A stretch of DNA of 64,000 nt from a bacterium. Its GTDB lineage: Bacteria > Bdellovibrionota > Bacteriovoracia > Bacteriovoracales > Bacteriovoracaceae. The stretch's first letter is position 1. Each line of letters starts with the position of its first letter. Under the pieces are notes generated by a model. That model worked only from the letters and a program-made list of their open reading frames with translations. It was not told the DNA's origin and did not search any database. The translations under genes and the position numbers were made by a program. Positions 17,257-33,675 of this stretch are shown here, in pieces. Location: positions 62,001 to 126,000 of the forward strand of contig JAUHVL010000001.1 of NCBI GenBank assembly GCA_030425045.1. The letters run 5' to 3'.

Positions 17257-17389
17257 AAGTTATTCTCCATGATCATTTTGAAATTGATGCCATTTTTTTG
17301 GCTAGCGCATTACATAAAACAAAATGTTTCCAACATATTAACAATGGTGTAAATTTTTGTAAGCTATTATTTGAAATGGAGCATTGAAC

Positions 17390-17833
17390 ATGTCGTCAAC
17401 GAATTTAGACGTTTTCATGCCTGTTATTATCCTGATTGCTCTTGCTATCATAATGTTTGTAGGCGCAATCGGTGTAGTGGGCAAACTTTTAAGACCCCAT
17501 AAACCTACTCCCTTGAAAGAAACACCCTATGAGTGTGGTGAGGCGCCAGTTGGTTCTGCTTGGTCAAACTTTAACGTTAGGTTTTATGTTGTTTCATTAA
17601 TCTTCATCATCTTTGATGTTGAAGGTGCATTGATGTTTCCAGTTGCAGCTGTATTTAAAGACTTTGTTGCAATTGGTGCTGGTGGAGTTGTTCTAGGCTC
17701 TCTACTTCTTTTTATTTTAATTCTAGCCTCGGGTTTAGTTTACTGTTGGAAAAAAGGCGATCTTGATTGGGTTAAAAGTTTTCAACTGTCTGAAGATCAG
17801 TTGAAAAAATTAAATGAAGTTGAGGCACGCTAA
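17390..17833 (+). CDS. nuoA: NADH-quinone oxidoreductase subunit A
   Basis: Membrane subunit of complex I at the junction with the quinone site. ATG 17390 is chosen because GGAG lies eight bases upstream; the protein is 147 residues. Three membrane helices surround the conserved loop YECGEAPVGSAWSNFNVRFY, which contains the cysteine that reports active/deactive states in other organisms, and FDVEGALMFP in helix two. In this genome nuoA is followed directly by nuoH, with B, C, D, E, F, G and I absent from the window. The stop overlaps the nuoH start (TAATG). Confidence 0.96.
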   Translation: MSSTNLDVFMPVIILIALAIIMFVGAIGVVGKLLRPHKPTPLKETPYECGEAPVGSAWSNFNVRFYVVSLIFIIFDVEGALMFPVAAVFKDFVAIGAGGVVLGSLLLFILILASGLVYCWKKGDLDWVKSFQLSEDQLKKLNEVEAR

Positions 17834-19029
17834 TGAATAATACTATTGTTTCGTATTTGTCACAGTTTGAAGGTCATCAAAAATTTCTAGCTGTCGCAAG
17901 TGAATTTTTAGGTTTTGATGTAACAGCACTTGTTGGTTTTGTTATATTTTTTACAGCATGTTTTATTTTGGTAAACGTTGCTGCCGCTATCGGTGGACTT
18001 GGTACTTATGCTGAAAGAAAGATCTCTGCAGATATTCAAATGAGACAAGGTCCCAATAGAGTAGGACCCTATGGGCTTCTTCAGTTTCTTGCTGATGGCG
18101 TGAAAATGATTCTAAAAGAAGACGTTGTACCAGCACAGGCTGATAAGTTTCTTTTTAATATAGCTCCTCTGCTCGCCTTGAGCGGTGTCTTTGCAACTTT
18201 AGCAGTTCTTCCTTTATCTAGTGGTTTTATTTTAACTGATCTTAACATTGGAATTTTTTATCTCTTAGGCGTTGGCTCAGTTGTTGGTGTTGCTATTTTC
18301 GTAGGTGGTTACGCTTCAAACTCAAAGTGGAGTTTGTTGGGTGGTATGAGAGGTGCTTCACAGATTATAAGTTATGAAGTGCCGGTTACCATGTCGATTA
18401 TTTCGATTGTTTTATTAAGTGGCGGAATGTCGCTTGTTACTGTGACTGAGTCTCAAGGTGGTCTACCTCATCAGTGGTTCATTCTACATAATCCATTTAC
18501 CTTTATCGGATTTTTTGTAATGTTCATTGGAACTCTTGCTGAAGCAAACAGAGCACCTTTTGATTTACCTGAAGCTGAATCTGAGCTTGTTTCTGGTTAT
18601 CACACTGAATATACAGGTATGAAGTTTGCTTTCTTTGCGCTTGCTGAATACGCTGAGGTTTTTGTTCTTTGTGGAATTGTTTCGGCTCTTTATTTAGGTG
18701 GATATAAAGTACCGATGGATTTAGGTAACGGTGTTTTCTTTGTTGAAAATCTTGGCTTACCTGCAGTAATTGGAAAAAATATAGGACAGTTATTACAACT
18801 TGGTGCATTTTTTACCAAAACATTCCTCCTTTACTATGTTGTTATCTGGATTAGATGGACACTTCCTAGGATGAGAGTTGATGACCTGATGACTCTTTGT
18901 TGGAAATATCTAACACCTATTTCTTTATTTAATTTAATTGGTTGTGCTATATGGGTTTATTTCTTTGAGAATCAATCTATGTGGTCAGTAATCTTTAAGG
19001 CTGGTGCCGCTGGTGCAGGACACCACTAA
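17833..19029 (+). CDS. nuoH: NADH-quinone oxidoreductase subunit H
   Basis: Complex I membrane subunit that forms much of the quinone channel and the first proton path. The 398-residue protein has about eight helices with family landmarks: TYAERKISADIQMRQGPNRV, the acidic quinone-site loop starting at residue 236 (AEANRAPFDLPEAESELVSG), YLGGY at 287-291, and the C-terminal LLYYVVIWIRWTLPRMRVDD. It starts in the nuoA stop codon. The gene is complete and intact and serves as the reference for the divergent copy at 25374. Confidence 0.97.
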   Translation: MNNTIVSYLSQFEGHQKFLAVASEFLGFDVTALVGFVIFFTACFILVNVAAAIGGLGTYAERKISADIQMRQGPNRVGPYGLLQFLADGVKMILKEDVVPAQADKFLFNIAPLLALSGVFATLAVLPLSSGFILTDLNIGIFYLLGVGSVVGVAIFVGGYASNSKWSLLGGMRGASQIISYEVPVTMSIISIVLLSGGMSLVTVTESQGGLPHQWFILHNPFTFIGFFVMFIGTLAEANRAPFDLPEAESELVSGYHTEYTGMKFAFFALAEYAEVFVLCGIVSALYLGGYKVPMDLGNGVFFVENLGLPAVIGKNIGQLLQLGAFFTKTFLLYYVVIWIRWTLPRMRVDDLMTLCWKYLTPISLFNLIGCAIWVYFFENQSMWSVIFKAGAAGAGHH

Positions 19030-19042
19030 AAAGGATTAAAAA

Positions 19043-19570
19043 GTGTTTGAGAATATTCTATTTTTTATTTCTTCGTTTTTAGTTTTAGGAGGAGCAACAA
19101 TGGTAGTTCTTTCTAAAAACTTAATGCATGCATGTATTTTTCTTCTTTTTACTCTATTCGGTGTAGCCGGACTTTATTTAACCTTAGGTGCCGACTTTCT
19201 TGCTGCTGCTCAATTGGTTGTCTATGCAGGTGGTGTGGTCATCCTTATGCTGTTTGGAATTATGCTAACTGGTGGTACGGAAAATAAAGAAAATAGATTT
19301 GGAATAGAGAAAATACCTGGAATGGGTAGTGTAAAAACATATATTGTTGCTGGTGTATCAATTCTCTTTATCGCAACTGTTGTTTTGAAAATTATTGCAA
19401 ACTACATGAGACATTATCAGCAAACTGACTTACCAGAGTATATGACAACTGTAGAAAGAATCGGTCATTCACTACTGACTGATCACATACTGGCTTTTGA
19501 AATTTCTTCAATCCTATTATTAGGAGCATTGATTGGTGCTGCTATGATAGCTAGGCCAAGAAAGAGCTAG
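19043..19570 (+). CDS. nuoJ: NADH-quinone oxidoreductase subunit J
   Basis: Membrane subunit of complex I linking NuoH to the antiporter-like subunits. The GTG start follows AAGGAT; the protein is 175 residues with five predicted helices. Helix three has the flexible glycine patch LVVYAGGVVILMLFGIML, typical of NuoJ, whose pi-bulge changes during turnover in well-studied complexes. Gaps of 13 and 8 bases to its neighbours place it within one nuo operon. Confidence 0.95.
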   Translation: MFENILFFISSFLVLGGATMVVLSKNLMHACIFLLFTLFGVAGLYLTLGADFLAAAQLVVYAGGVVILMLFGIMLTGGTENKENRFGIEKIPGMGSVKTYIVAGVSILFIATVVLKIIANYMRHYQQTDLPEYMTTVERIGHSLLTDHILAFEISSILLLGALIGAAMIARPRKS

Positions 19571-19578
19571 GAGTAAAG

Positions 19579-19884
19579 ATGGTTACATTGGGTTCTTATT
19601 TATTTTTATCATTTGCACTTTTTGTTGCTGGTTTAGCGGTAATCATTGCAAGAAAAAATATTATCGCCATGCTTTTAGGTATTGAGCTAATGCTCAATGC
19701 TGCAGCTTTAAATTTTGTAGCTTATACAAGGTTTGTTAATAGTAATATTGACGGTCATATTATGGCCTTATTTATCATAGTAATTGCTGCGGCTGAAGCA
19801 GCTGTTGGTTTAGCTATTGTTATTAGATTTTTTCAATTGCGTGAGAGTATTCATATTGATGATGCCGCTCAATTACAAAATTAA
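19579..19884 (+). CDS. nuoK: NADH-quinone oxidoreductase subunit K
   Basis: Small MrpC-like complex I subunit of 101 residues with three helices. Both membrane glutamates required for proton transfer are present: E36 in LLGIELMLNAAALNF and E73 in IAAAEAAVGLAIVI. Spacing of eight bases from nuoJ and about twenty to nuoL keeps it in the operon. It is the reference for the copy at 26726, where neither glutamate is seen. Confidence 0.96.
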   Translation: MVTLGSYLFLSFALFVAGLAVIIARKNIIAMLLGIELMLNAAALNFVAYTRFVNSNIDGHIMALFIIVIAAAEAAVGLAIVIRFFQLRESIHIDDAAQLQN

Positions 19885-19904
19885 TACTTAGTTAGGAAAA
19901 AAAT

Positions 19905-22082
19905 ATGGATTATACAATTTCTAGTATTGCACCAATCGTTCTACTTCCTTTCTTTGCCTTTGCAATTAATGCTTTTATTGTAAAGAGATTCACAAAGTTA
20001 GCTGTGTTTATTAGTTGTGCTGCGATTCTTGGTTCTTTTGGATTTGCTTACAATATCTTCTGCGATTTTATGACCGTATATTCAGCGGACTATCATATTC
20101 ACAAAACATTTAATTGGTTCAACTTAAGCCATGGAAACTTAAACTTTAAAGTCGATATGGGTATCTATATCGATAATATGTCAGCTGTGATGTTACTTAT
20201 GGTGACTGGTGCTGCTTCTCTTATTCATATTTTTTCAACTTATTATATGAAAGAGGACGTTAGATACGGTCGTTTTTTCGTTTATCTATCTTTATTTACC
20301 TCGGCAATGCTGGGCCTTGTTCTTTCTGATAACTTACTTTCTGTATTTATTTTTTGGGAACTTATGGGCTTTTGCTCTTATTCTCTTATTGGTTTTTACT
20401 ATGAAAAAGAAGGTGCCGGTAATGCTTCTATAAAAGCATTTATGACAACAAGAGTTGGGGATGTCTTTTTCTTATTTGGTATTCTCGCAATTTGGTCGAT
20501 TGTAGGAAATGTCACCTTTGTAGATATCTATAAAACAATTGCTGCTGGCGGATTTGATGGTGCAATGGCTCTTGGAATTCCTCTCGCTACAGTTGCAGCC
20601 TTTTCTATTTTTATGGGTACTGTTGGTAAGTCCGCTCAGGTTCCATTACAAGTTTGGTTACCAGATGCCATGTGGGGTCCAACACCATGTTCTGCATTAA
20701 TTCACGCTGCAACAATGGTTGCCGCCGGAGTTTACTTGTCTCTAAGATGTTACCCTCTTATGGAAGTTGGTAACTTAACAACTGCTATAGCTTATATTGG
20801 TGGAATAACTGCTTTTGGTGCAGCAACAATTGCTCTTGTTCAGACTGATATCAAAGCGGTGCTTGCTTATTCTACCATTTCACAATTGGGTTATATGGTT
20901 TTAGGTGTAGGTGTTGGATCGTATAACGCTGCTTTTATGCACTTAATTACTCACGCTGTTTTTAAAGCATGTTTATTCCTTTCTGCAGGCTCTGTTATTC
21001 ACTCATTGCATGATCACCATACCCACGGTCACGTTCAAGAAATGCCACGTATGGGTGGATTGAGAAAGAAAATGCCATATACCTTTATAGCAATGCTTTT
21101 ATGTACGTTTGCTATTGCAGGTGTCCCACTATTTTCAGGCTTTGTATCTAAAGACAGAATTCTAGGAGATGCACTTCTTGCAGCTGGGTACAGTAAATCA
21201 TTTATAATCCCTGCAGCTCTTGGATTTGGTGGAGCTCTATTAACAGCTTTTTATATGTTTAGAATGATGTTTTTAACTTTCTTTGGAGAACCAAGAGATA
21301 AAGAGCTTTATGATCATACCAAAGAAGAGAAAATTTCTTGGAATAGAAACGTACCTCTTTTAATTTTAGCAGTTTTTACTCTCGGTGTTTTCTATTCAGG
21401 ATCTTTAACGGGTCAAAAAATAGTTAAAGTTTTTCCAAAAGATAGCATTGAGTGGTTTAAAACTCTTATTGTTGAACCCAAAGTGGAAAAATTTCAGAAC
21501 TACCAAAGTGAGCCATTTGCTTGGACTGATACTAGAAATAAAACACGATTTGAAAGAACAAAATATGATCCAACTTATGGACTTCCACAAGAAGAGTATG
21601 ACCACGTTCATCACGTGCATTTAATTGGCGCAGGTATGTCTGTTTTGATTGTGATCCTTGGAGTCGGTATGGCTGCTATGATGTACCTACTTAGACTCTG
21701 GAATCCAGGCTGGTGGGTTAATACTTTTGCTAGATTTTATAGAGCACTTCAAAATAAATACTACTTTGATGATATGTATGTAAAAGGCCTTATTAAAAAG
21801 GGTCTTCTGCCTTTAAACAATCTACTTGCAGCTATAGATATGGGTATTTATGACAGATATGCTATTGATGGCTGGCAATATGTAGTTAGAAAGATTTATT
21901 TAGTATCAAAGTGGTTTGATAACATTATGGTTGATACTGTTGCCGTTGACGGAACTGGAGCAAGTGTAAGACTGATGAACATAGTCTTAAGAACGCTACA
22001 GTCTGGTAGAGTGCAGTTTTATTTTATTATTATTATATTTTTACTAACATTTTCGAGTTATATATTTAATCAAAACTTTTAG
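19905..22082 (+). CDS. nuoL: NADH-quinone oxidoreductase subunit L
   Basis: Distal antiporter-like proton pump of complex I, 725 residues, longer than E. coli NuoL (about 613). Channel residues are present: E152 in FWELMGFCSYSLIGF, lysine in GTVGKSAQVPLQVWLPDA, the HLITHAVFKACLFL helix, and K416 in PLFSGFVSKDRIL. The extra length lies in a hydrophilic insert after about residue 500 (tyrosine- and acid-rich, including KYDPTYGLPQEEYDHVHHVH), followed by the long lateral helix and the last membrane helix. It lies in the operon between nuoK and nuoM. Confidence 0.96.
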   Translation: MDYTISSIAPIVLLPFFAFAINAFIVKRFTKLAVFISCAAILGSFGFAYNIFCDFMTVYSADYHIHKTFNWFNLSHGNLNFKVDMGIYIDNMSAVMLLMVTGAASLIHIFSTYYMKEDVRYGRFFVYLSLFTSAMLGLVLSDNLLSVFIFWELMGFCSYSLIGFYYEKEGAGNASIKAFMTTRVGDVFFLFGILAIWSIVGNVTFVDIYKTIAAGGFDGAMALGIPLATVAAFSIFMGTVGKSAQVPLQVWLPDAMWGPTPCSALIHAATMVAAGVYLSLRCYPLMEVGNLTTAIAYIGGITAFGAATIALVQTDIKAVLAYSTISQLGYMVLGVGVGSYNAAFMHLITHAVFKACLFLSAGSVIHSLHDHHTHGHVQEMPRMGGLRKKMPYTFIAMLLCTFAIAGVPLFSGFVSKDRILGDALLAAGYSKSFIIPAALGFGGALLTAFYMFRMMFLTFFGEPRDKELYDHTKEEKISWNRNVPLLILAVFTLGVFYSGSLTGQKIVKVFPKDSIEWFKTLIVEPKVEKFQNYQSEPFAWTDTRNKTRFERTKYDPTYGLPQEEYDHVHHVHLIGAGMSVLIVILGVGMAAMMYLLRLWNPGWWVNTFARFYRALQNKYYFDDMYVKGLIKKGLLPLNNLLAAIDMGIYDRYAIDGWQYVVRKIYLVSKWFDNIMVDTVAVDGTGASVRLMNIVLRTLQSGRVQFYFIIIIFLLTFSSYIFNQNF

Positions 22083-22099
22083 TTAAAAAGGAGCGCCAA

Positions 22100-23632
22100 G
22101 TGCAGGCCCATTCAAACTTATTAAACTGGATTTTATGGATGCCCATGATTGGAGCAATCGTAACACTTTTAATTCCTTCAAAAATGGAAAAAGGTATTCG
22201 TTGGTGGAGTTTAGTTAATACTTTAACAACGTTCATCTTAACATTAGTGTTGTATAGCAAATTTGATACTACTGTTCCGGGAATGCAAGAAGCTTTTAAT
22301 GTTAAGATTCCTTGGATTGCTCAGTTTCATATTAATTATTCACTAGGGATTGACGGTATATCATTACCAATGATCTTGCTCACGGGCTTACTTTTCTTCC
22401 TTTGTATTATGAGTTCTTGGACTATTACAAAACAAATTAAAGCCTACTTTTCATTATTTTTATTTCTTCAATGTTCAGTATTTGGAGTTTTCTTAGCGTT
22501 AGACTTCTTTTTATTCTACGTCTTTTGGGAAGTAATGCTTATTCCGATGTTTTTCCTAATCGGAATATGGGGTGGAGAAAATAAAGAATATGCCGCAGTA
22601 AAATTTTTCCTCTACACATTCTTTGGATCAATTTTAATGTTAATTGGTATGGTTGCTCTTTACTATGCTTCAGGCCAGGGAGCAGATTCATTTGATATCT
22701 TAGCTCTATCTGGGGGACACTTTAGAAATCTAAATCTAGAGCTCTTTGGAACAAACTTTGCGTTTAACAAATTATTATTTATTTTCTTATTCATTGGTTT
22801 TGCGATTAAAGTACCCGTGTTTCCTTTTCATACTTGGTTACCACACGCACACGTTCAGGCACCTACAGCAATTTCGGTAATTCTTGCAGGTGTTTTATTA
22901 AAAATGGGTACATATGGATTTTTGAGAATCGCTTATCCAATTTTTCCAGAAGCCTCTAAGTACTTCTCTTACTCTATAGCAGTCTTAGGTATTATCAACG
23001 TTATCTACGGTGCTTTCTGTGCAATGGCTCAAAACGACGTTAAAAAGCTTGTTGCATATTCTTCTGTATCACACATGGGCTTTGTCATGCTTGGCTTAGC
23101 GGCGATGACAGTTCAGGGTATGAATGGAGCTGTACTTCAGATGTTTAACCACGGAACTTCAACAGCTATGATGTTCCTACTTATAGGTATTCTTTACGAA
23201 AGATCTCACCACAGATGGATCGTTAAGCCAGATGGTACAAAAGGTTTTGGTGGTCTTTATACTCAATTACCAAAGTTTAGTATAATTTTCATTATAGCTA
23301 TGTTTGCTTCAATGGGCTTACCTGGTTTATCAGGCTTTATTTCAGAAGCATTAATTTTCCTAGGTATTTACGAAAGATTTACTTCAATCACAGCGCTAGG
23401 GTTAATTGGTCTTCTCATCGGTGCAGCTTATTTACTATGGATGTACAAAAGAATGTTTTTTGGTGATGTCATCGATGAATGTAAAACTTATACAGACGTA
23501 AATGCTAGAGAAATTGCTTATATGACTCCTCTTTGTATTGCCGTTATTGTTTTTGGTATTTATCCATCACCAATATTAAATATGATGAGAGCTTCAGTGG
23601 GTAAACTGGTTTCGTTACTTGCTACTTTTTAA
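22100..23632 (+). CDS. nuoM: NADH-quinone oxidoreductase subunit M
   Basis: Second antiporter-like proton pump, 510 residues, GTG start after AAGGAG. Key residues are visible: E144 in FYVFWEVMLIPMFF, lysine in FAIKVPVFPFHTWLPHAHVQAP, FNHGTSTAMMFL (the NuoM form of the central helix) and the glutamate in GLPGLSGFISEALIF. About 14 membrane helices are expected. It is intact and sits between nuoL and nuoN. Confidence 0.96.
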   Translation: MQAHSNLLNWILWMPMIGAIVTLLIPSKMEKGIRWWSLVNTLTTFILTLVLYSKFDTTVPGMQEAFNVKIPWIAQFHINYSLGIDGISLPMILLTGLLFFLCIMSSWTITKQIKAYFSLFLFLQCSVFGVFLALDFFLFYVFWEVMLIPMFFLIGIWGGENKEYAAVKFFLYTFFGSILMLIGMVALYYASGQGADSFDILALSGGHFRNLNLELFGTNFAFNKLLFIFLFIGFAIKVPVFPFHTWLPHAHVQAPTAISVILAGVLLKMGTYGFLRIAYPIFPEASKYFSYSIAVLGIINVIYGAFCAMAQNDVKKLVAYSSVSHMGFVMLGLAAMTVQGMNGAVLQMFNHGTSTAMMFLLIGILYERSHHRWIVKPDGTKGFGGLYTQLPKFSIIFIIAMFASMGLPGLSGFISEALIFLGIYERFTSITALGLIGLLIGAAYLLWMYKRMFFGDVIDECKTYTDVNAREIAYMTPLCIAVIVFGIYPSPILNMMRASVGKLVSLLATF

Positions 23633-23644
23633 CAAGGTTTGATT

Positions 23645-25123
23645 ATGCCTTTTAATTATTTAGAGAATCTTACACACTATATTCCCGAGTTGATCATTTG
23701 CTTTACAATGATCGCATGTATTTTATTTGAATCAGCATACGAAAAGAATGATTCTGATAGAGGGATACTTTATTTAATAGCAATATTAGGACTTGGGTCT
23801 GCTGGAGTTTTTGCATATCAAAAAATATTTGCAGAAAATACTTTCATTTTAGGAAGTGCACTTGCTATAGACTCATTTTCATCTACAGCAAAAGTATTAA
23901 TGATAATTGGTACTATCGGTGCTCTCTACTTAAGTAAAATCTCAAAAGATATTTATCAAGATTTAAAAGGTGAATTTGTTATCATGTCTACGGGGGTTCT
24001 CGTTGGAGGATGTCTTCTGGCCTCTGCTAATAATATGCTTATCCTTTATATAGGAATTGAAACACTTTCGATTCTTTCTTACGTCATGGCATCATTTAAA
24101 AAGACTGACGATAGATCTAGTGAAGCAGGATTGAAGTATGTTTTATATGGTGGAGTCTCGGCAGCGGTTATGCTTTTTGGAATGAGTCACATTTATGGTG
24201 TATTAGGAACAATAAACTTTCAAGAAATGGCTACTGCCCTTTCTGGTATCGCTCAATCTTATCCAAATAATCAACTAACTATTTTAATTCCATCTTTTAT
24301 TTTATTTATTGCTGGTATTGGGTACAAAATTTCAAGTGTACCTTTTCATATGTGGACTCCCGATGTGTATGAAGGCTCACCAATGCCTGTTACGACATTT
24401 TTTTCTATAGTTCCAAAAATTGCAGGAATTACAATCCTATTGAGAGTTTCTTCACTGTTCTTTTCTGAAAGTAACCTTCTCTCAGTTAGCTGGTTTGGAA
24501 TAATCAGTTCAATGTCTATTCTTACTATTACTGTTGGTAATATTGCTGCCATTGGCCAGCGATCAGTTAAAAGAATGTTAGCTTACTCCTCTATATCTCA
24601 TGCGGGAATGATGATGCTTGGTATAGTTGTTCTGAATACAGTTGGTATGAGATCAATCCTATTCTATGCTGTTACTTATATTTTTATGACTCTTGTTGCT
24701 TTCTACATTTTATCAATTGTAAATGATGAATACGATAATGATCACTTTGAAAGATTTTCAGGCTTAATTTACAAAAAACCACTGATGGCTATTTTGATGG
24801 CCGTAACAATGTTCTCACTTGCTGGAATTCCACCACTAAGCGGTTTTGTTGCAAAATTTCATATATTAAATGCTGTTGTTAAAGAAGGATACTATACCCT
24901 CGCTATTTTAGCAGGCTTGAACTCGGTGATATCTTTATACTACTATTTAAAAATTGTTAGATTAATGGTTTTTAAACCTTATGAAGGCTCTGAAAACTTA
25001 GTAGGCTTTGGTGTCTTAAATCAAACTATTGTAACAGTGCTGTTTATACCAATCGTTATGCTTGGTATTTTCTGGGCAGGGACAATGGCCAAACTAAATC
25101 TTGCAAATATTTTAATGAACTAA
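23645..25123 (+). CDS. nuoN: NADH-quinone oxidoreductase subunit N
   Basis: Third antiporter-like proton pump. I start it at ATG 23645 (AAGG seven bases upstream) rather than the TTG two codons earlier, giving 492 residues. Landmarks are YIGIETLSILSYVMASF (helix 5 glutamate), YKISSVPFHMWTPDVYEGSP, LAYSSISHAGMMMLG and K404 in LAGIPPLSGFVAKFHIL. It is the last normal gene of the membrane-arm set. Only 24 bases, containing AAGGAAAGGG, separate it from the first gene of the divergent second set, so both sets are probably on one transcript. Confidence 0.96.
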   Translation: MPFNYLENLTHYIPELIICFTMIACILFESAYEKNDSDRGILYLIAILGLGSAGVFAYQKIFAENTFILGSALAIDSFSSTAKVLMIIGTIGALYLSKISKDIYQDLKGEFVIMSTGVLVGGCLLASANNMLILYIGIETLSILSYVMASFKKTDDRSSEAGLKYVLYGGVSAAVMLFGMSHIYGVLGTINFQEMATALSGIAQSYPNNQLTILIPSFILFIAGIGYKISSVPFHMWTPDVYEGSPMPVTTFFSIVPKIAGITILLRVSSLFFSESNLLSVSWFGIISSMSILTITVGNIAAIGQRSVKRMLAYSSISHAGMMMLGIVVLNTVGMRSILFYAVTYIFMTLVAFYILSIVNDEYDNDHFERFSGLIYKKPLMAILMAVTMFSLAGIPPLSGFVAKFHILNAVVKEGYYTLAILAGLNSVISLYYYLKIVRLMVFKPYEGSENLVGFGVLNQTIVTVLFIPIVMLGIFWAGTMAKLNLANILMN

Positions 25124-25147: not shown

Positions 25148-25381
25148 ATGGAAAATCCCTCCTCTCAAAAAAATAATAAGAGTCAATTAACAATAAAGAA
25201 TACTTTATTGTTAATTAAGTTAGGTTCTATTTTTTTTATATCTTATATAATACTAATTACTATTGATGGTGAGAGAATATCTTTTAAACTGAGTGATATA
25301 TGGGCGCCAATTCTTCTGTATATAATTATGTTGTTTGCATGCATATACCAGTTAAGTAGAGAGTCTAATCATAATGGTTAA
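25148..25381 (+). CDS. Small membrane protein, putative divergent NuoA-like (A')
   Basis: A 77-residue protein with a strong ribosome site (AAGGAAAGGG). A polar N-terminus (residues 1-18) is followed by two membrane helices (about 20-38 and 47-66) and a charged tail. No specific motif is recognised. I suggest it matches the second and third helices of NuoA because it opens a seven-gene run in which every later gene can be matched in order to H, J, K, L, M and N, and because the layout helix-DGERISFKLSD-helix resembles the end of NuoA (FDVEGALMFP...). The NuoA loop ECGEAP is absent. It overlaps the next gene by eight bases. The weakest member of the set. Confidence 0.45.
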   Translation: MENPSSQKNNKSQLTIKNTLLLIKLGSIFFISYIILITIDGERISFKLSDIWAPILLYIIMLFACIYQLSRESNHNG

Positions 25382-26339
25382 TGAACTCTTTAAAGTCATT
25401 CTGCTATCATTTTTAACATTTGGTTTTGTGCTGTTTTTACCGGCAATAAACAAAATAGTTTACAGAAATCGTTATAGTAGAAATCTTAATTCAGATCAAA
25501 AATTTTACGGTAAAAATATTCTAAAAATAATTGCACTTTCTACTGTTCTTTCAGAAAAACGATTTGATGTAAAATTTATAATAACAACTATAATCTTAAT
25601 ACTAGGAATAGGTATATTTCCCTATACATCTGATATTTGGGTTGATGGAAGTTTTTATCGAACAAGTTTTTATTCAGTAAAATATGATTTTATATATATA
25701 ATTTGCCTAATTTTAACTGTTAATTTTATAGACTTATTTTCAGCTATAAATAGTGAAAATGTTAAATCTAGTGAAATAATAATTACTAAAACTTATTTTA
25801 GTATAATATTTATAATAAACTGCATTGCCCTGCTTCTTTTTTTTCGATCTACAGATCTAGTAAATATAATTCAAACTCAAGAGGGTGGAACGTCAGAGCT
25901 ACTTGGAAATTTGCCTTTTATAAAGAATCCATTATCTTTCATATCTCAATTTTTTTGCTTTTTGGTTTTTTTTAAGACTCAAAACCCAGAATTAGCTAAA
26001 AAAAGAAGACATGAAGATTCTAAATTAATTTTTATAGAAAACTTAAAAATGTTTTTTGTATCCTTGTTTTTAGTATACTTTTATTTAGGCGGTTACTCGA
26101 TTGTACTATTTCCTGAAAAAGTACTCGATAATGTACCAATTATTTATAATTTATTTCAACTAGTCTTTGTTTTCTTAAAATTGGCCATCATATTTATATT
26201 TATTAACTATTTTAAAGATAAGGTTTCCATTGGCTACTCTAAAAACTTTAGTAATTTTTTCTTTAAACTAATTTTTCTTATTTCATTAATGGGCCTAATG
26301 GTTGAAATATTAAGAGAGGCTTCATATGGAATTATTTAG
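25374..26339 (+). CDS. Divergent NuoH-like membrane protein (H')
   Basis: A 321-residue polytopic protein, about eight helices, shorter than NuoH (398). By-eye alignment to the NuoH encoded upstream is good in several places: NPLSFISQFFCFLVFF against NPFTFIGFFVMFIGTL, the identical YLGGY (residues 237-241), VFVFLKLAIIFIFINYF against the NuoH segment ending in the conserved IRWTLPR, and the N-terminal helix followed by a basic, asparagine-rich stretch. The acidic quinone-site loop of NuoH is replaced by a lysine/arginine-rich stretch (KTQNPELAKKRRHEDSK). I infer a NuoH homologue that has lost quinone chemistry. Coupled by overlaps on both sides (8 and 14 bases). Confidence 0.7.
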   Translation: MVNELFKVILLSFLTFGFVLFLPAINKIVYRNRYSRNLNSDQKFYGKNILKIIALSTVLSEKRFDVKFIITTIILILGIGIFPYTSDIWVDGSFYRTSFYSVKYDFIYIICLILTVNFIDLFSAINSENVKSSEIIITKTYFSIIFIINCIALLLFFRSTDLVNIIQTQEGGTSELLGNLPFIKNPLSFISQFFCFLVFFKTQNPELAKKRRHEDSKLIFIENLKMFFVSLFLVYFYLGGYSIVLFPEKVLDNVPIIYNLFQLVFVFLKLAIIFIFINYFKDKVSIGYSKNFSNFFFKLIFLISLMGLMVEILREASYGII

Positions 26340-26733
26340 TATTTTCATTATGAGTGTTGCATTAATAAGCAATATAACGTCACTTATATTTAAATCATAT
26401 ATTAAAATAATTCTTCCTTTATATGCTGTTTTGGTAGGAATTACTTTGTATACTCATAACGAATACTTATCTCTCTTATTTGTAGCTGTAGCTATACTTA
26501 TAAGCTTATTTATTCTTGCTAATTTTAAAAATAATGAAGAATTAATAATTAATTTTCGAAAAGTAATTATATTTTTAATGATATTTTGTTGTGTTTTTGT
26601 AGTTGTATATACATTTCATGATAAAGATTTGAAAAGCATATCTGCCACTATGGAAAATAAACATGATTATTTATTTTTGTTTTTACTAGTTGTTATTTCC
26701 CCTGTTCTAGAGATGGTTAGAAGGTATGATTGA
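26326..26733 (+). CDS. Divergent NuoJ-like membrane protein (J')
   Basis: A 135-residue protein with four to five helices. Residues 12-70 follow the NuoJ pattern: a helix, a short basic loop (KSYIK, where NuoJ has SKNLMHA), a helix ending VGITLYTHNEYLSLLFVA against AGLYLTLGADFLAAAQLV, then a third helix LFVAVAILISLFILANFKNN. The glycine pair of the NuoJ third helix (YAGGV) is absent. The C-terminal hydrophilic part is short. It overlaps the genes on both sides (14 and 8 bases). The call rests on topology, gene order and partial similarity. Confidence 0.58.
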   Translation: MELFSIFIMSVALISNITSLIFKSYIKIILPLYAVLVGITLYTHNEYLSLLFVAVAILISLFILANFKNNEELIINFRKVIIFLMIFCCVFVVVYTFHDKDLKSISATMENKHDYLFLFLLVVISPVLEMVRRYD

Positions 26734-26947
26734 AGTTATTTTAAAGACGTTTTTGATATCAATACCCTTGTACTTTTTTATAACAAGTAGGGGTAAAAAT
26801 GTTATCTCTTATTTTTTGCTTATACAGTCACTTTTTCTCATATGCTTTCTCGGAAGTGGGCAGCATCTGTCATCTCAGATGCTTATGAGTGCTATGTTTT
26901 TAATTATCTCCCCTCTTTTTCTTTTAAATAAAAGAGGCACTAGATGA
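26726..26947 (+). CDS. Divergent NuoK-like membrane protein (K')
   Basis: A 73-residue protein with three helices, the NuoK topology. RGKNVISYFLLIQSLFLICF aligns without gaps to RKNIIAMLLGIELMLNAAAL of NuoK, so the essential glutamate E36 corresponds to Q34. The third helix (MLMSAMFLIISPLFLL) has no acidic residue, so the second glutamate (E73) is lost as well. The C-terminus is trimmed to NKRGTR. Overlaps its neighbours by eight and four bases. Gene order and this gap-free match make the assignment fairly good despite the short length. Confidence 0.63.
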   Translation: MIEVILKTFLISIPLYFFITSRGKNVISYFLLIQSLFLICFLGSGQHLSSQMLMSAMFLIISPLFLLNKRGTR

Positions 26948-28356
26948 GTGTTGTGATAATTTTTTTGTATACATTATTTTTCTTTCTTTTTGAAAAAAGT
27001 GAAAAAATAAAGAGATCTATAACCTATGGATGTGCTTCAGCGCTGTTGGTTACTCTTTATCTTTTTTTGGTTAACGACTATGGCTTTTTTGTTAATTTAT
27101 TGAAGAATATAGACTTGAGTATAAGTGAGACCAGAGTTCTTATTTTTGGATTTATGGTAACTATATACTGCTTTTTTTCAGATCGATTATTGTCTTTTTT
27201 AGACATCTATAAAAAAGTTTTTATTGTAGTTATTTTTCTGGCGAGCTGTGTTGAAGGTTTAGGTAACATTTATTTGTTTTATCCTTGTTTGTTATACTTC
27301 TTAATAAATAAAAAAGTGTCTTTTAGTGTTTACCTGATCTCATTAGTTTCTTGGCTTACTTTTCTTGTAGTAAAAAATGAGTCTTTAGCAAATGTTATCT
27401 TTATTCTACAGGTTATAAGTTTTAATTACTTTTTTATGTTGTTGTATGAGAGTAAAAACTTCTTCGTTTTATCTTATCCTTCTTTGTTATTGCATTTTAA
27501 GTCTATAAATTTAGATGCTCATTATAGTTGGGGTTTGATTATACTAATATGCTCATTGTTGTTTTACTTTTGGTGTGTCAAATTTTTTGAAAATAAAAAG
27601 TCAAATTTAGTTATACTTCTAATACCACTCTTTGTTTATGTGGGAAGTCAGTTTTGGTCAGCCCAGAATCAGATAGAATCAATTATGTTATTTTTATACT
27701 TACTTTGCTCGCTTTTGAAAGTTTTAGAAAATAAAGAGAAGAAGCACGCGATGTACTTTGGTGTGCCCTTTTTATTACTTTATTTGTTTCTCCCCTTCTC
27801 CCCCTTGTTTAAGTTTGGAAGTGCTTTTAATGAGATGGGGTTATCTTTTATTTTTTATCTAATATTAATAATGGTGAATTTTGTGATTGGATCATTAAGT
27901 GTTAAATATATTAAAACTCTAATTCTTGATAAGAAAAAAATCTATTTGAGTATAAAAAATAAATATGGAGTTAGGCTTACTGCTTTATTTATTATTGGCA
28001 TCATGTGTACATTATATTTGAAAGACTATGATAGTGGGTCAATAGTATTAAGAGAAAATGAGCCAGTCGTTTATATTTTAGCAATAATGAGTCTTGCTCT
28101 GGGTATTATGTTTAAGTATATCGCAGATGATTCAAATACTATTAAAGACATTTTTGGAAGAATGTATTATAAAGCAAAGAGCTCTTTCTCGTTTAGTTTT
28201 AATAAGAAAATACCTATGTTTCGCTTTGGTGACGGAATAAATCTGAATGAAATATCATATTTATTTAAGAATCACTCAATTCAACATCGCCTGGAGTTGA
28301 TTATAGTTTACATGTTTATAGTCTTGGTAATTGTATATTTGATGGTTTTTAAATGA
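26944..28356 (+). CDS. Divergent NuoL-like membrane protein (L')
   Basis: A 470-residue polytopic protein against 725 for NuoL. Matching landmarks by eye: NVIFILQVISF near residue 150 against SVFIFWELMGF, placing Q156 where NuoL has E152; SPLFKFGSAFNEMG against VPLFSGFVSKDRIL, placing F295 where NuoL has K416; and a C-terminal amphipathic stretch plus last helix (QHRLELIIVYMFIVL against GRVQFYFIIIIFLL). The region of the NuoL histidine/lysine helix (HAVFKACLFL) appears deleted. I infer an antiporter-fold protein unable to conduct protons by the usual path. It starts inside the K' stop codon (ATGA). Confidence 0.6.
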   Translation: MSVVIIFLYTLFFFLFEKSEKIKRSITYGCASALLVTLYLFLVNDYGFFVNLLKNIDLSISETRVLIFGFMVTIYCFFSDRLLSFLDIYKKVFIVVIFLASCVEGLGNIYLFYPCLLYFLINKKVSFSVYLISLVSWLTFLVVKNESLANVIFILQVISFNYFFMLLYESKNFFVLSYPSLLLHFKSINLDAHYSWGLIILICSLLFYFWCVKFFENKKSNLVILLIPLFVYVGSQFWSAQNQIESIMLFLYLLCSLLKVLENKEKKHAMYFGVPFLLLYLFLPFSPLFKFGSAFNEMGLSFIFYLILIMVNFVIGSLSVKYIKTLILDKKKIYLSIKNKYGVRLTALFIIGIMCTLYLKDYDSGSIVLRENEPVVYILAIMSLALGIMFKYIADDSNTIKDIFGRMYYKAKSSFSFSFNKKIPMFRFGDGINLNEISYLFKNHSIQHRLELIIVYMFIVLVIVYLMVFK

Positions 28357-29381
28357 TTGAATACTTGGCCTTTTTACCGATTGTTTTTATTATTTTATCT
28401 CTTCACATTAGAGGGCTTTTTGTTATCGGTAGTTCATTATTTATTATGATTCAAGCTTATTCATTATTTATATCAGGAGATATGAGTCAGTACTATTTAT
28501 ATAAAGAAGAAATACTAAACGTAGTAATAATTATTGCATTAAATATATTGGGTTTTATTAAAAAAAATAAGTTAGATAATCAGGTGCGCATTATAAGTGC
28601 GTTGGTGGTTTTGTTAACTATATCAAAAGGGATATTTACTGTAGTTTTTACGATAGAAATTTTTAGATTAATGACTAGGCCCAAGGTGTCAAATAGTGAA
28701 ACCGCAAAAGAATTAACTGCTTTCGCCGTTAGGTGCTTCTTTATATTCGTGTTGTTTTTAAATGTAAATATAGATTTGTTCCTGCATGAAAATCTAAGCT
28801 ATAGCGATTTACTTCTTACAGAAAACCTTGTCGCCTTGTCATTTATTTATTTAATTGAAAATATAATGAACTTTATAAAAAGCCTTAATGGTCACGATGA
28901 AACACTAAAAAAGGTAATTTTGTATATTGTTTTTCAAGTTTTAGTAATTAGCTATATGTCTTCTCTCGACACTCACTCTGAGCATTTATTAGCATATATT
29001 CAAGAATACATATTTGAACTATCTCTTTTTATCATATTAGCTTCATATTTATTTAGAAGAAGTCTTATTAATTACTCGCTACTCTATGTCGGTACGATCT
29101 TTACAAGTATTCACATTTTCCAAAACTCATTTTACTTTTTCTTTGTAGGCTTACCCGTTCTTATACTTATTTTAATTGAGCAATATAAAATTGAGATTGG
29201 TGAACGCTACATTAATTATGAGAAAGACTTATTGCCTTTTTCGTTTTCTTTCTTAGTATTTATTATTCCTTTTATTCTTGGTGGAGAATTTACAAGATCT
29301 ATTTGTGCAGTGACAATTTGTACTTTGCTCGTGCTAAATTTTACTAATAAATTCAAAAAAAGAAGTATGCTCCATGGTTGA
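28353..29381 (+). CDS. Divergent NuoM-like membrane protein (M')
   Basis: A 342-residue membrane protein against 510 for NuoM. Similarity is weak, but VVFTIEIFRLMTRP (E102) lines up with YVFWEVMLIPMFFL, where NuoM has E144, and LLPFSFSFLVFIIPFILGGEF (E312) resembles the NuoM run QLPKFSIIFIIAMF followed by LPGLSGFISEAL, where the second channel glutamate lies. The last one or two NuoM helices are missing. Position between L' and N' is the strongest argument. Overlaps both neighbours by four and eight bases. Could also be read as an unrelated membrane protein, hence moderate confidence. Confidence 0.5.
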   Translation: MIEYLAFLPIVFIILSLHIRGLFVIGSSLFIMIQAYSLFISGDMSQYYLYKEEILNVVIIIALNILGFIKKNKLDNQVRIISALVVLLTISKGIFTVVFTIEIFRLMTRPKVSNSETAKELTAFAVRCFFIFVLFLNVNIDLFLHENLSYSDLLLTENLVALSFIYLIENIMNFIKSLNGHDETLKKVILYIVFQVLVISYMSSLDTHSEHLLAYIQEYIFELSLFIILASYLFRRSLINYSLLYVGTIFTSIHIFQNSFYFFFVGLPVLILILIEQYKIEIGERYINYEKDLLPFSFSFLVFIIPFILGGEFTRSICAVTICTLLVLNFTNKFKKRSMLHG

Positions 29382-30546
29382 TATTATAAAACTACTTATT
29401 GTGCTTAATGTTGCATTTTTCATTTTAAGTATGTATTTTAACTTTAAGTCTATAAAAATAATATTCCCACTAGTACCTCTGAGTGTTCCTTTCTTTGAAT
29501 ATCTTTATACGGGGAATGTTAATATGGAGAATTTAATTCTCTACTTAATATATATTCTGATATGTGTAGTAAATTTTAGAGAAATATTAAGAAGCTCCAT
29601 TCGCTTAAACGATATAGTTATTTTAAACAATATTGTATTAGTCTATACATTGATAAAATTTAACAACGAAATATATTACAAAAATATCGCCTTATTCTCT
29701 ATTTTATTAATGACTCTATCTTTAATAAGAGGTGATAAAAGAAATGCATGGGCTATTTTGACCTTGCTTTTAATATTTGTATTATCTTTTTGGATACAGA
29801 CATTTGAATTTGTGGGAGAAAGTTCATACCTCTTTTACTATTTCTTACTTTTTATAAATATTTTCATTACGTTAATAATAATTCCAGAGTTTATTTTAGT
29901 CGAAGAACAAAAAAACAAGGGGAGCTTACTATTATTTGGGTATCTAATATTAATTCTATTAAACATAGAAGTCATTTTTCCAGTGGTAGAAAATTTACTA
30001 AGTAGATCAGCTTTTCAGGAAAATGTTGTGGGGAAAATTAAGTCTGTTTTATCAGTTGGGATTTCAGCCTTATGGCTATTCAAATATTTTCTGGAGAAGA
30101 AATTAGATAATAAATTATTTTGTGTATTTATTTCTCAATTGTCTCTCTGTTTTTATTTAGGTATACAAGATCAGTATAATAATTCTGTTTATATAAGTAA
30201 TTTATGCTTTTCTATAATTGTATTTTATATCTTAGTAAAAAAATCAATTACTGATAATAAAATCACAGACCCTTTCCTATTTACAATATCATTTGCTGGT
30301 CTTGTGGCATGTCCAATGAGCGCTACTTTTATATATAAATTAAAATATTTAAGCTATATGATCAATTTCTATGACTGGACATTTATCTTTGCATTTGTTG
30401 CAGTATCTATAGCATTATTTGGGACATCAACATACTTTATTACAGAGTTAAAAAAATCTTACGAAAATCGACGTTTAACTTTTAAAAATCAAGAATTGAC
30501 ATTATTTGCTATACTTATATTTTTACTGCCAGGATATATACTATAG
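29374..30546 (+). CDS. Divergent NuoN-like membrane protein (N')
   Basis: A 390-residue membrane protein against 492 for NuoN. Its C-terminal part matches NuoN well: DPFLFTISFAGLVACPMSA against KPLMAILMAVTMFSLAGIPP, then TFIYKLKYLSYM against GFVAKFHILNAV, with lysine K322 at the position of the channel lysine K404, and a final helix ending YFITELKKSY against YYYLKIVRLMVF. In the segment corresponding to the helix-5 glutamate of NuoN, no acidic residue is seen. It is followed after three bases by the GYF/TPR gene, so translation is closely linked. One of the better-supported members of the set. Confidence 0.66.
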   Translation: MVDIIKLLIVLNVAFFILSMYFNFKSIKIIFPLVPLSVPFFEYLYTGNVNMENLILYLIYILICVVNFREILRSSIRLNDIVILNNIVLVYTLIKFNNEIYYKNIALFSILLMTLSLIRGDKRNAWAILTLLLIFVLSFWIQTFEFVGESSYLFYYFLLFINIFITLIIIPEFILVEEQKNKGSLLLFGYLILILLNIEVIFPVVENLLSRSAFQENVVGKIKSVLSVGISALWLFKYFLEKKLDNKLFCVFISQLSLCFYLGIQDQYNNSVYISNLCFSIIVFYILVKKSITDNKITDPFLFTISFAGLVACPMSATFIYKLKYLSYMINFYDWTFIFAFVAVSIALFGTSTYFITELKKSYENRRLTFKNQELTLFAILIFLLPGYIL

Positions 30547-30549
30547 TAG

Positions 30550-33500
30550 ATGACATCTTATAGATTCAAACTTTTAGATGGCCGAACTATTGGGCCTTTC
30601 AAGATTGATGAAATCAATCAATTAATTAATGAAAATATCATTACCGGAAATGAATATGTTCAAGTGTTCCCTGGTGGGGAATGGATAGAGGTAGCAGAAA
30701 ATAAGGATATAAATAATCTCATTGTTGATTCTATCTTTGGTAATAAGAATAAAAATGATGAGACAATTACAAACATTGAAAATGACTTAGTTGAGTATCA
30801 AACAGCTATAAAATCTAAAAGTGACAAAGATCTTAAGCTTATCGTTGACGAAGAAATGGAGAAAAGTTTAGAAGCTGAAAGTGAGTCACAATATAGAGAG
30901 TTTAAGTTTTCTAAGAATGAAGATGTAGAGGTCGATTACGATGAATTAGAATCTGCATATCAAAAAAGTGAAGAAGAAAATAAAAAAGAAGAAGAGAGAA
31001 ATATTGATGCTACTCGAGTAGTAAAACTTAAAAACACACCTGCAATAGACAAAACTCGAGTAATAAATCCTGCGTCGATAAAAGATGACTTGTTTGATGA
31101 TGTTGAGGAGAAAAGTGAAGATCTTACAAGTTCTATTATCGAAGAGGAACCACCACCTCCGGTTGTTTCTTCAAGTGAAAAAACAGAGTTTCTTGAACTT
31201 GATGAGCTTAAAAAAGAATTAGGCAAAGAACTTCAAGAGGCAAAAGGCTATGAAGAAACAAAAATTTTTATTCCTGAAAAGAAAGAAGAGAAAACACTCG
31301 TAACAGAGACGAATCCCAAAAAGATCAAACCTGTTGTTGCTTTAGCTTTTATTGTTCTTCTCTATTTTTTAATTTTTGATGAAGAAGAAGTAGAAAAACA
31401 AAAAATATCAAAAGTACCCATTTCTAGTCCTGTAACAAAAGAAGTACCAAATCCAGGTTTGGCTCAAAAATTTTATACTGAAGGCGTTAAGCTTTATCGT
31501 TTAAATACATATCAATCTAAGGTTTTATCAGCGGAAAAGTTTAGACTCTCATTAGAAAATCAATTTAATGAAAATCCTTCACTTCCTTTTTTAATTAGAA
31601 CCTATGCAGAATTAATCGATAATGCTGTTAGTAGAAAAAAGGCAAATCTAGTAATTTATAGATTAATTAGAATTACCAGAGCGAAAGTACTTAAAGATGT
31701 TAACGTAGCTTATGGAACAGCTTTGTTTTATAGAAAATTGGGGAAGAATCAAGCTGCACTTAGAACGATAGAAAACTTTCTAAGGGTGGGAAAACCTAGT
31801 GTTGATTTGCTTTGTATATATGGAGAACTCTTGTTGGATCTTGGTGATTTTGTAAAAGCTAAGACTGTCCTAGATAACTTAATTAAGCTTAAAACAAAAC
31901 CGCCAAAAGCTTACCTCTTTTTAACTCGATACTATGTATATGACCAAAGACTAGAGTTAGCGAGAGATACCATTTTAGAGGGCGGAAAAAACTATCCAAG
32001 TAATAATAGTTTGATGATTAGTTTCGCTGAATTAGAACTAAAATTACAAAACTATAAATCTTTTGAAAAAATTCTTAGAACTTTGACGTTAACTCATTCT
32101 GGTGGTGAGCCAGTTGTGTATGCAAAGTATCTAGAGTTAATGGGAATCTTAAGCTCATTAAAGGGTGATAGTAAAAAAGCAGCAGTGTTTTTTAAATCCT
32201 CTTTAAGCGTTGTGAACTCACCTGCGCTAAGGTCTCGACTTGGAATGCTTGATGTCGAAGGTGATAAGCTTTCTCAGGCGTTAATACTTGAAAGTAAGGC
32301 TTTTAACTTTTTACAAATATCACGAAAGCATGTTGCAAAAAAAGAGTGGGAAGAGGCTTTTAAATTTGCGCTAGAAGCTGTTGACCTCAACCCAGGTTTT
32401 CTTCCAGTAGAACTCAATTTAGCTGATCTTCAAGTAAAGAGAGGCTATCTAGAAGCGGCTATTTTAAAACTAGAGTCGCTTAAAAAAGCTTATCCTAAAA
32501 GTAATCATGTCATTCATCGGCTCATTCGTGCTTACTTGGTTGCAAGAAAATTTGAAAAAGCAAAATATGAAATAAATTATATTTCGACATCAGATTTTAA
32601 AAAGGATGATGCTTATTTTAGTTTGCTTGGTTTTTATTACACAAAAATTGAAGGATATACACTAGCAATAAAGTTCTATAATAAATCAATAAGGATGAAC
32701 CCTTTAAATGATGATGTTTATTTTGAAATGGCTAAAATATTTATGAGCAGTCGTAAGTATAAAGAAGCAAAAAAAGCATTAACTGAAGCCATCTCTCTTG
32801 ATCCCAATAATCTAGATTATAGATCACTGCATAGTAAAATTTTGTTTGAGCTTGAAGGATCAGAAACAGCAGTTGGTTATCTTCAAGATTTAATTACTGA
32901 AAATAAAGATGACCCCTTGCTGTATGGAAATATTGCTATTTATTACTACAAAAGCGGCCAAGTAAAACAATTTGAGCATTATAAAGGATTGTTAGAAAAA
33001 TTACCTAAGAGGGACAGTAACTTCTTTAAATTTATGATTGAGTCTTCAGAGCTTGAGGGCAAAAACAAAAACGTTATCGATTTTTGTAAAGAGCTTTTAA
33101 AAATAAATCCTGGAGATATTGATACTAGAATGAAACTGGCAAATTTTTTAAGTTTAGAAGAAAGATATTTTGAAGCACTTGAGATTTATAATAGTATTTT
33201 AGAAAGAATGCCGGGTTATCCTTTAACGAATTATTACATTGGTAAAATTTACTTATTACAAAACAAAAATAAAGAGGCTTTAGAAGCTGGTAAGCTTGAA
33301 GTTAAGTCAAATCCTACTATCTATAATGGCCACTTTATTGTTGGAGAAGCCAATAGAAAACTAGAGGAATATTCTTTAGCTGTAAAAAACTTAGAAAAGG
33401 CAATTTCTCTGGCTCCAAGAAGCGTTGAGTCATTAATGTCCCTTGGTTGGATAAAGTTTCAGCAAAACTTTCTTGAGATTGCACGTGAGCTTTATATCAG

Positions 33501-33675
33501 GGCAAAGAATGTAGAGCCAAATAACCCTGATATAAGGCGTGAGCTTGGAAACGTATATGTAGGTATAGGTCAAAGTACTTTGGCTAAAGAAGAGTACGAA
33601 ATTTATTTAAAGTTAGCTCCTCAGGCTAAAGATAGAGCAAAAATTTCTAATAAAATTAAGAATTTGTCACGGTAG
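30550..33675 (+). CDS. GYF-domain, single-pass membrane TPR protein
   Basis: A 1041-residue protein. Residues 3-55 form a GYF_2-type domain (RFKLLDGRTIGPFKIDEINQ, GGEWIEV), a peptide-binding fold. Residues 60-255 are acidic and low-complexity, with four short threonine motifs (DATRVV at about 153, DKTRVI at 167, EKTEFL at 210, EETKIF at 235) resembling phospho-threonine docking sites. A membrane helix follows (about 260-275, VVALAFIVLLYFLIF), and from about 290 to the end there are more than a dozen TPR repeats, for example YTLAIKFYNKSIRMNPLNDD. With an N-in topology, the TPR array would be in the periplasm. Coupled to the divergent nuo-like set, so it is probably its assembly or binding partner (inference). 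Confidence 0.75.
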   Translation: MTSYRFKLLDGRTIGPFKIDEINQLINENIITGNEYVQVFPGGEWIEVAENKDINNLIVDSIFGNKNKNDETITNIENDLVEYQTAIKSKSDKDLKLIVDEEMEKSLEAESESQYREFKFSKNEDVEVDYDELESAYQKSEEENKKEEERNIDATRVVKLKNTPAIDKTRVINPASIKDDLFDDVEEKSEDLTSSIIEEEPPPPVVSSSEKTEFLELDELKKELGKELQEAKGYEETKIFIPEKKEEKTLVTETNPKKIKPVVALAFIVLLYFLIFDEEEVEKQKISKVPISSPVTKEVPNPGLAQKFYTEGVKLYRLNTYQSKVLSAEKFRLSLENQFNENPSLPFLIRTYAELIDNAVSRKKANLVIYRLIRITRAKVLKDVNVAYGTALFYRKLGKNQAALRTIENFLRVGKPSVDLLCIYGELLLDLGDFVKAKTVLDNLIKLKTKPPKAYLFLTRYYVYDQRLELARDTILEGGKNYPSNNSLMISFAELELKLQNYKSFEKILRTLTLTHSGGEPVVYAKYLELMGILSSLKGDSKKAAVFFKSSLSVVNSPALRSRLGMLDVEGDKLSQALILESKAFNFLQISRKHVAKKEWEEAFKFALEAVDLNPGFLPVELNLADLQVKRGYLEAAILKLESLKKAYPKSNHVIHRLIRAYLVARKFEKAKYEINYISTSDFKKDDAYFSLLGFYYTKIEGYTLAIKFYNKSIRMNPLNDDVYFEMAKIFMSSRKYKEAKKALTEAISLDPNNLDYRSLHSKILFELEGSETAVGYLQDLITENKDDPLLYGNIAIYYYKSGQVKQFEHYKGLLEKLPKRDSNFFKFMIESSELEGKNKNVIDFCKELLKINPGDIDTRMKLANFLSLEERYFEALEIYNSILERMPGYPLTNYYIGKIYLLQNKNKEALEAGKLEVKSNPTIYNGHFIVGEANRKLEEYSLAVKNLEKAISLAPRSVESLMSLGWIKFQQNFLEIARELYIRAKNVEPNNPDIRRELGNVYVGIGQSTLAKEEYEIYLKLAPQAKDRAKISNKIKNLSR

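Follow-up and report, generated by a model that had tools for sequence, protein, structure and literature searches.

The stretch of DNA analysed here, called the window, has a length of 64,000 nucleotides and contains seven membrane ORFs, A'-H'-J'-K'-L'-M'-N' (25148-30546), which overlap or lie close to each other directly 3' of the canonical nuoA-N genes. These primed genes almost certainly go back to a second complex I, present in full in an ancestor of the family, and K' and L' would be remains of its membrane arm. The overall account that we consider probable is that of a non-pumping assembly derived from this decayed second complex I. The identification of a second membrane arm is based on synteny and on intermediate forms in related genomes, and not on a residue map of L'.

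Gene layout and origin of the second membrane arm

The genome holding the window (G000, 3.97 Mb) was compared with genomes of a family whose contigs are named Bacteriovoracaceae, Halobacteriovoraceae and Halobacteriovorax, among others. The canonical nuoA-H-J-K-L-M-N genes (17384..25123, + strand, located as ORFs) form the reference set; NuoL matches Pfam Proton_antipo_M with 1.6e-77, and there are three strong PF00361 matches. They are followed on the same strand by A' (25148..25381, 77 aa), H' (25374..26339, 321 aa), J' (26326..26733, 135 aa), K' (26726..26947, 73 aa), L' (26944..28356, 470 aa), M' (28353..29381, 342 aa) and N' (29374..30546, 390 aa), which we regard as decayed NuoA, NuoH, NuoJ, NuoK, NuoL, NuoM and NuoN, respectively. 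The positions of K' and L', the two ORFs considered in an earlier note on this DNA, agree with the ORF list. The run of genes ends with a TPR protein of 1041 aa (30550..33675, + strand, Pfam TPR). This protein adjoins nuoN with or without A'-N', so that it seems to belong with the canonical nuo genes.

All seven primed proteins of the window are without a believable match in Pfam or NCBIfam. With sets of decayed sequences only (19 in the column test), from which eleven less decayed or atypical genomes were left out, hhalign gives no sequence signal from L', M' or N' to NuoL, NuoM or NuoN (L' against NuoL, E 0.67). This lack of family and profile matches would suit the reading of L', M' and N' as unrelated hydrophobic membrane proteins brought together by chance, which is extremely improbable and is largely refuted by the intermediates. 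The same slots in the same order are occupied by recognisable NuoA, H, J, K, L, M and N in genome G020 and by recognisable NuoK, L, M and N in G104, and the predicted structure of the window H' is that of a subunit H.

The gene order A-H-J-K-L-M-N of the complex I membrane arm is found in the primed ORFs of the window. Among 40 loci downstream of nuoN (20 + 20) in the same family, all seven primed ORFs are located between nuoN and the TPR gene in 23, part of them in seven and none in ten. The partial loci are three contig ends (G026, G028, G075), two cases where K' was not picked by the ORF picker (G061, G021), one with no M' found (G063) and one reduced locus (G004). G063 was scored as partial because its M' slot holds a 70-aa non-membrane ORF, while the script had counted all seven. 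In the reduced locus (L119), A'H'J'K' are followed by a single 214-aa ORF replacing L'M'N', which is a snapshot of arm loss.

In G020, each of the seven primed proteins matches the Pfam family of its own Nuo subunit, including the A' orthologue with Oxidored_q4 (7.9e-19). The Pfam matches in G104 are 1e-81 for L', 1e-71 for M', 1e-39 for N' and 1e-26 for K'. In the window, A' is assigned by its slot in the conserved order and by the G020 orthologue, with a best but weak hhalign match to NuoA; J' is assigned by synteny, together with a weak hhalign signal (0.0012 against less decayed J'), and M' and N' by synteny and intermediates. The decayed-only set of H' is still recognisable by hhalign (8.9e-15 against less decayed H'). 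The AlphaFold model of the window H', built from 15 alignment rows of which three were less decayed sequences, has a pLDDT of 73 and a pTM of 0.72. Among the Foldseek matches listed for this model (50 PDB rows), all are complex I or NDH, with TMq values of 0.60-0.78. The predicted structure of H' has the fold of subunit H, and in the window lineage the GPNRVGP loop is missing from the protein. Apart from the copy in the window itself, a direct search with L' in 59 genomes returned three weak matches (E 0.0026-0.026), which are not trusted.

Channel residues of K' and L' and the decay series

Part of the literature source PMC5938582 presents NuoH, NuoN, NuoM, NuoL and NuoK as important for pumping, and a study of an acidic residue pair in NuoK is named in its references. 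The complete list of charged residues (D/E/K/R/H) in the window K' is E3, K7, R22, K24, H47, K69, R70 and R73. His47 is the sole charged residue from position 25 to 68, and helices 2 and 3 contain no acidic or basic residue. The earlier statement that K' lacks the residues of proton transfer is borne out. At the NuoK E73 site, for which the absence of an acid had also been claimed, an acidic partner occurs in 0 of 9 alignments. The proposed replacement of NuoK E36 by Q34 appears in seven of nine alignments, but another alignment, read by eye, gives a serine and Q34 is not conserved in relatives. The membrane glutamates of NuoK, E36 and E72, are both absent in the window K'; they are kept in 3/26 and 2/26 K' sequences, respectively. 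Among 19 decayed K' sequences, no column reaches at least 70% identity and none at least 60% of the same charge. K' has lost the channel residues.

The residue map of L' from the earlier note was rejected. It had placed Q156 opposite NuoL E152 and F295 opposite NuoL K416, and neither pairing occurs in any of nine alignments or in the profile comparison. The partners of E152 are L198 (three alignments), a gap (three), K90 (two) and E104 (one, where the acid is kept), and K416 stands opposite a gap in all nine. The profile-profile alignment puts E152 on I94 and K416 on F291, which is adjoined by the lysine K290. For the other channel positions of NuoL (E144, K229, K399 and others), the alignments of the window L' disagree. 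Of 30 L' sequences, four keep NuoL E144, and a lysine at the K416 site is still present in L' of G007, G074, G060 and G061; this one site may therefore be an exception to the loss. The L' chain has 470 residues as compared with 725 for NuoL of the same genome, and its AlphaFold model (15 sequences) is too poor for structural use, with a pLDDT of 43.6 and a pTM of 0.24. A place in L' for the NuoL helix HAVFKACLFL, which to the earlier note seemed deleted, did not emerge from these comparisons. The idea that glutamate had twice become glutamine within a preserved structure is not supported, since the match in L' is irreproducible, L' diverges too fast, and the glutamines are absent from the relatives in which the same replacements were looked for. 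With an L' identity of 24-36% between congeners (NuoN 80-91%), there are no grounds for assuming that its fine structure is preserved. The loss of channel residues in L' is inferred from the decay series and from the absence of any conserved charged column, except one basic, in 19 decayed sequences.

The decay series was tabulated with E. coli NuoL, NuoM, NuoN and NuoK as the reference. The second complex I is complete in the two genomes of genus g15 that were read (G104 and G014), as lipoprotein-B'-CD'-E'-F'-G'-I' together with A'-N'. This pair keeps the tabulated positions in 9/9 cases for NuoL, 6/6 for NuoM, 2/2 for NuoK and 3/4 for NuoN. G020 is half decayed: its L' keeps E144, H334, H338, K342 and D400 and has lost D178, K229, H254 and K399, and in its K' only the first glutamate is kept. 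In the K', L' and M' orthologues outside g15 and G020, the tabulated residues are mostly or all gone in most genomes. The carriers of the decayed set include a genome of Halobacteriovorax marinus (L151). A FastTree tree of NuoN and the TPR protein nests the intact g15 pair among decayed lineages, with weak backbone support. A NuoB tree, into which badly cut sequences with long branches were mixed, was set aside. It is likely from these sequences that the decay ran in parallel lineages, although the events are not firmly counted.

The conclusion of the earlier note that this half of the arm is not a proton channel gains from the loss of residues relative to g15 and from the absence of a conserved acidic column, but its residue-by-residue case for L' does not hold. 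It had been reached without sight of the graded decay across the family or of the B', CD' and I' genes on another contig. Very probably there is no canonical proton channel in K' and L'. Since the decayed L', M' and N' give no sequence signal and the model of L' is poor, a channel evolved anew, or a fold different from that of the antiporters, is conceivable in them. Ion movement through L', M' and N' by lineage-specific charges at new places is very unlikely. The hydropathy-defined helices of the decayed proteins do hold some K, R, E, D or H residues, and K290 of L' lies near the old K416 site. Nevertheless, in the sets of 19 decayed sequences for K', L', M' and N' no acidic column and almost no basic one is conserved, and close congeners have in common 2/8 and 6/16 of such L' residues, which is about the background identity.

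Divergence, selection and the peripheral Fe-S part

Since dS is saturated in many comparisons, only dN and a stop simulation were used. In the five close pairs with both values, the dN of L' and M' is 0.57-0.96 (L' 0.68-0.94) versus 0.06-0.14 for NuoN. Such very fast divergence, far above that of NuoN, as well as the partial loss in G004 and the complete loss in 10 of 40 loci, could indicate that the primed genes are functionless pseudogenes on the way to being lost. This is improbable. Random substitution at the observed dN (500 runs each) produces a mean of 18-28 stops per gene, with a minimum of 7, and none is seen; the frames are open, with nearly equal lengths in the pairs (447/447 and 505/507 residues), and the cysteines of B' and I' are retained in the window genome.

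The decayed pair G002/G108 has identities of 60% for B', 58% for CD', 53% for I', 38% for H', 27% for L', 21% for M' and 31% for N', with 80% for the canonical NuoN. The values of A' (51%) and K' (55%) are both above that of H' and are exceptions to this outward fall from the Fe-S part. In G007/G074, the seven membrane proteins are at 20-29% identity and CD' is at 58%. No outward fall is seen in the intact pair G104/G014, with identities of 86% for L', 88% for M', 93% for N' and 85% for NuoN. The sequence of the anchor would matter less with increasing distance from the Fe-S part, and in the fading arm selection might act only on a membrane protein being present.

Another contig of the window genome carries, in the order lipoprotein-B'-CD'-I', a lipoprotein gene, further copies of nuoB and nuoI, and a fused nuoCD. 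The roles of residues, the cluster names N2, N3 and N6, and the ligand sets of NuoB and NuoI are those generally given for complex I. The B' protein keeps four of four N2 cysteines and lacks C102 of NuoB, which is outside these four, and I' keeps all eight cluster cysteines. In CD', Ser and Lys replace both quinone-site histidines and the tyrosine is kept. The genes E'F'G' for the NADH module are missing from this second set. A search for NuoF found no PF01512 match anywhere in G000 and was positive in 9 of 14 control genomes; the canonical complex I of G000 also appears to be without an NADH module.

That the second complex has an operon of its own for B', CD' and I' bears on another interpretation, in which the primed arm is an inactive structural partner of the canonical complex I, encoded in the same operon and serving as an extra or dimer arm. 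The location of A'-N' directly 3' of nuoN in 30 of 40 loci, some of them partial, fits such a partner, and the overlapping ORFs of the window suggest a single transcript. But the second complex owns its Fe-S subunits, and ten of the 40 loci are without A'-N' and yet keep nuoM, nuoN and the TPR gene. We regard a structural partner as unlikely.

Across the family, of 31 rows for I', 25 have 8/8 cysteines and 30 have four that are able to hold one cluster. For B', 4/4 N2 cysteines are present in 16 of 31 rows and not all four in 15, which means that a continuous electron wire is not universally kept. Some rows of this table were chosen by gene position rather than similarity; what stands as B' for G024 is a lipoprotein fragment, and I' of G016 is short. 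In two loci (L134 and L136, of G087 and G033), a B' that has lost every one of its four N2 cysteines occurs with an I' having all eight. Decayed F'/G' proteins survive in G005, G065 and G117. They have lost the FMN motif, but the N3 cysteines remain, and of the 16 cysteine positions of E. coli NuoG all except one are retained.

The operon persists in reduced form in the arm-less genomes G120, G068 and G024. The I' of G068 and G024 has cysteines for one cluster and I' was not found in G120, while B' of G120 and G068 has no N2 cysteines and B' was not found in G024. The operon also persists, with an I' having all eight cysteines, in G064, G106 and G017, where NuoN was not found. The lipoprotein-B'-CD'-I' set can outlast the whole membrane arm. 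The lipoprotein was rejected as a marker of A'-N', as it is also present in genomes without these genes.

Proposed role and comparison with known systems

The non-pumping assembly could have arisen in the following way. The second complex I of a family ancestor, at that stage still complete, would first have lost the NADH module together with the chemistry of protons and quinone, and the Fe-S ligands and open membrane frames would have been kept. The remaining complex would not be expected to pump protons or reduce quinone by the complex I mechanism. The subunits B', CD' and I' would sit on H', and the remaining six membrane subunits would serve as the anchor. In this, the most economical account, the retained Fe-S function would be one that needs no more than B', CD' and I' with an anchor. 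Judged from the sequences, a membrane-anchored Fe-S assembly may be the present function, at somewhat less than even probability. Candidates for the surviving Fe-S function are a redox relay, a redox sensor or a supply of electrons to a partner. There is about an even chance that a paralogous complex I has been undergoing conversion in parallel lineages, with pumping lost, the arm turned into hydrophobic filler, and finally lipoprotein-B'-CD'-I' left, with one cluster in some genomes, while the Fe-S role survives.

The relatives would then dissect complex I in natural steps, from the intact and the half-decayed set to sets that lack the channel residues, the NADH module and the membrane arm. 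Such a series separates the needs of the Fe-S part from the needs of pumping, and the assembly would be a multi-subunit counterpart of pseudoenzymes. In the literature searched, judged by titles and the beginnings of abstracts, no description of such a decayed second complex I was recognised.

The primed set has in common with the complex I (NDH-1) arm NuoAHJKLMN the gene order, the number of subunits, a descent traced via intermediates and the fold of H'. It differs in the absence of the K' channel residues, the NADH module and the CD' quinone histidines, and in an L' that cannot be aligned. The cyanobacterial NDH-1 type complex I has 11 subunits, is driven by ferredoxin, pumps, and keeps the channel and quinone residues. 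Like the primed set, this ferredoxin-driven complex has B, CD, I and an arm of seven subunits but not E, F and G; the primed complex of the window genome, however, is without those kept channel and quinone residues. The Ehr complexes are relatives of complex I akin to energy-converting hydrogenases and are described as being without the original catalytic site. This lack is shared by the primed set; the difference is that Ehr is an old separate family, whereas the primed set represents a decay within one family, with intact sister genes in g15.

The Mrp antiporter also has antiporter-like subunits. In contrast to it, A'-N' has the slots of H', J' and A', with B'CD'I' in the same genome, and the Mrp-like cluster is separate. 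In that multi-gene cluster (L065, G000:C76), two antiporter-like proteins are accompanied by several small membrane proteins; there are good PF00361 matches, and the cluster resembles an Mrp antiporter.

Two further observations concern the surroundings of these genes. In six genomes (loci L163, L164, L169, L171, L172 and L176), most of which have no arm or a reduced one, a desaturase-like gene closely follows I' or CD' in the same orientation. Its presumed identity as a fatty-acid desaturase is read from histidine motifs. It is possibly an electron partner, or its place is due to chance, and it is given as a lead only. A further NuoN with about 30% identity is found in several genera, in G120:C5, G127:C2, G063:C4, G034:C28 and G004:C4, with a NuoB-like gene on the same contig (in G034, on another contig); these sets would represent a third type of complex I.
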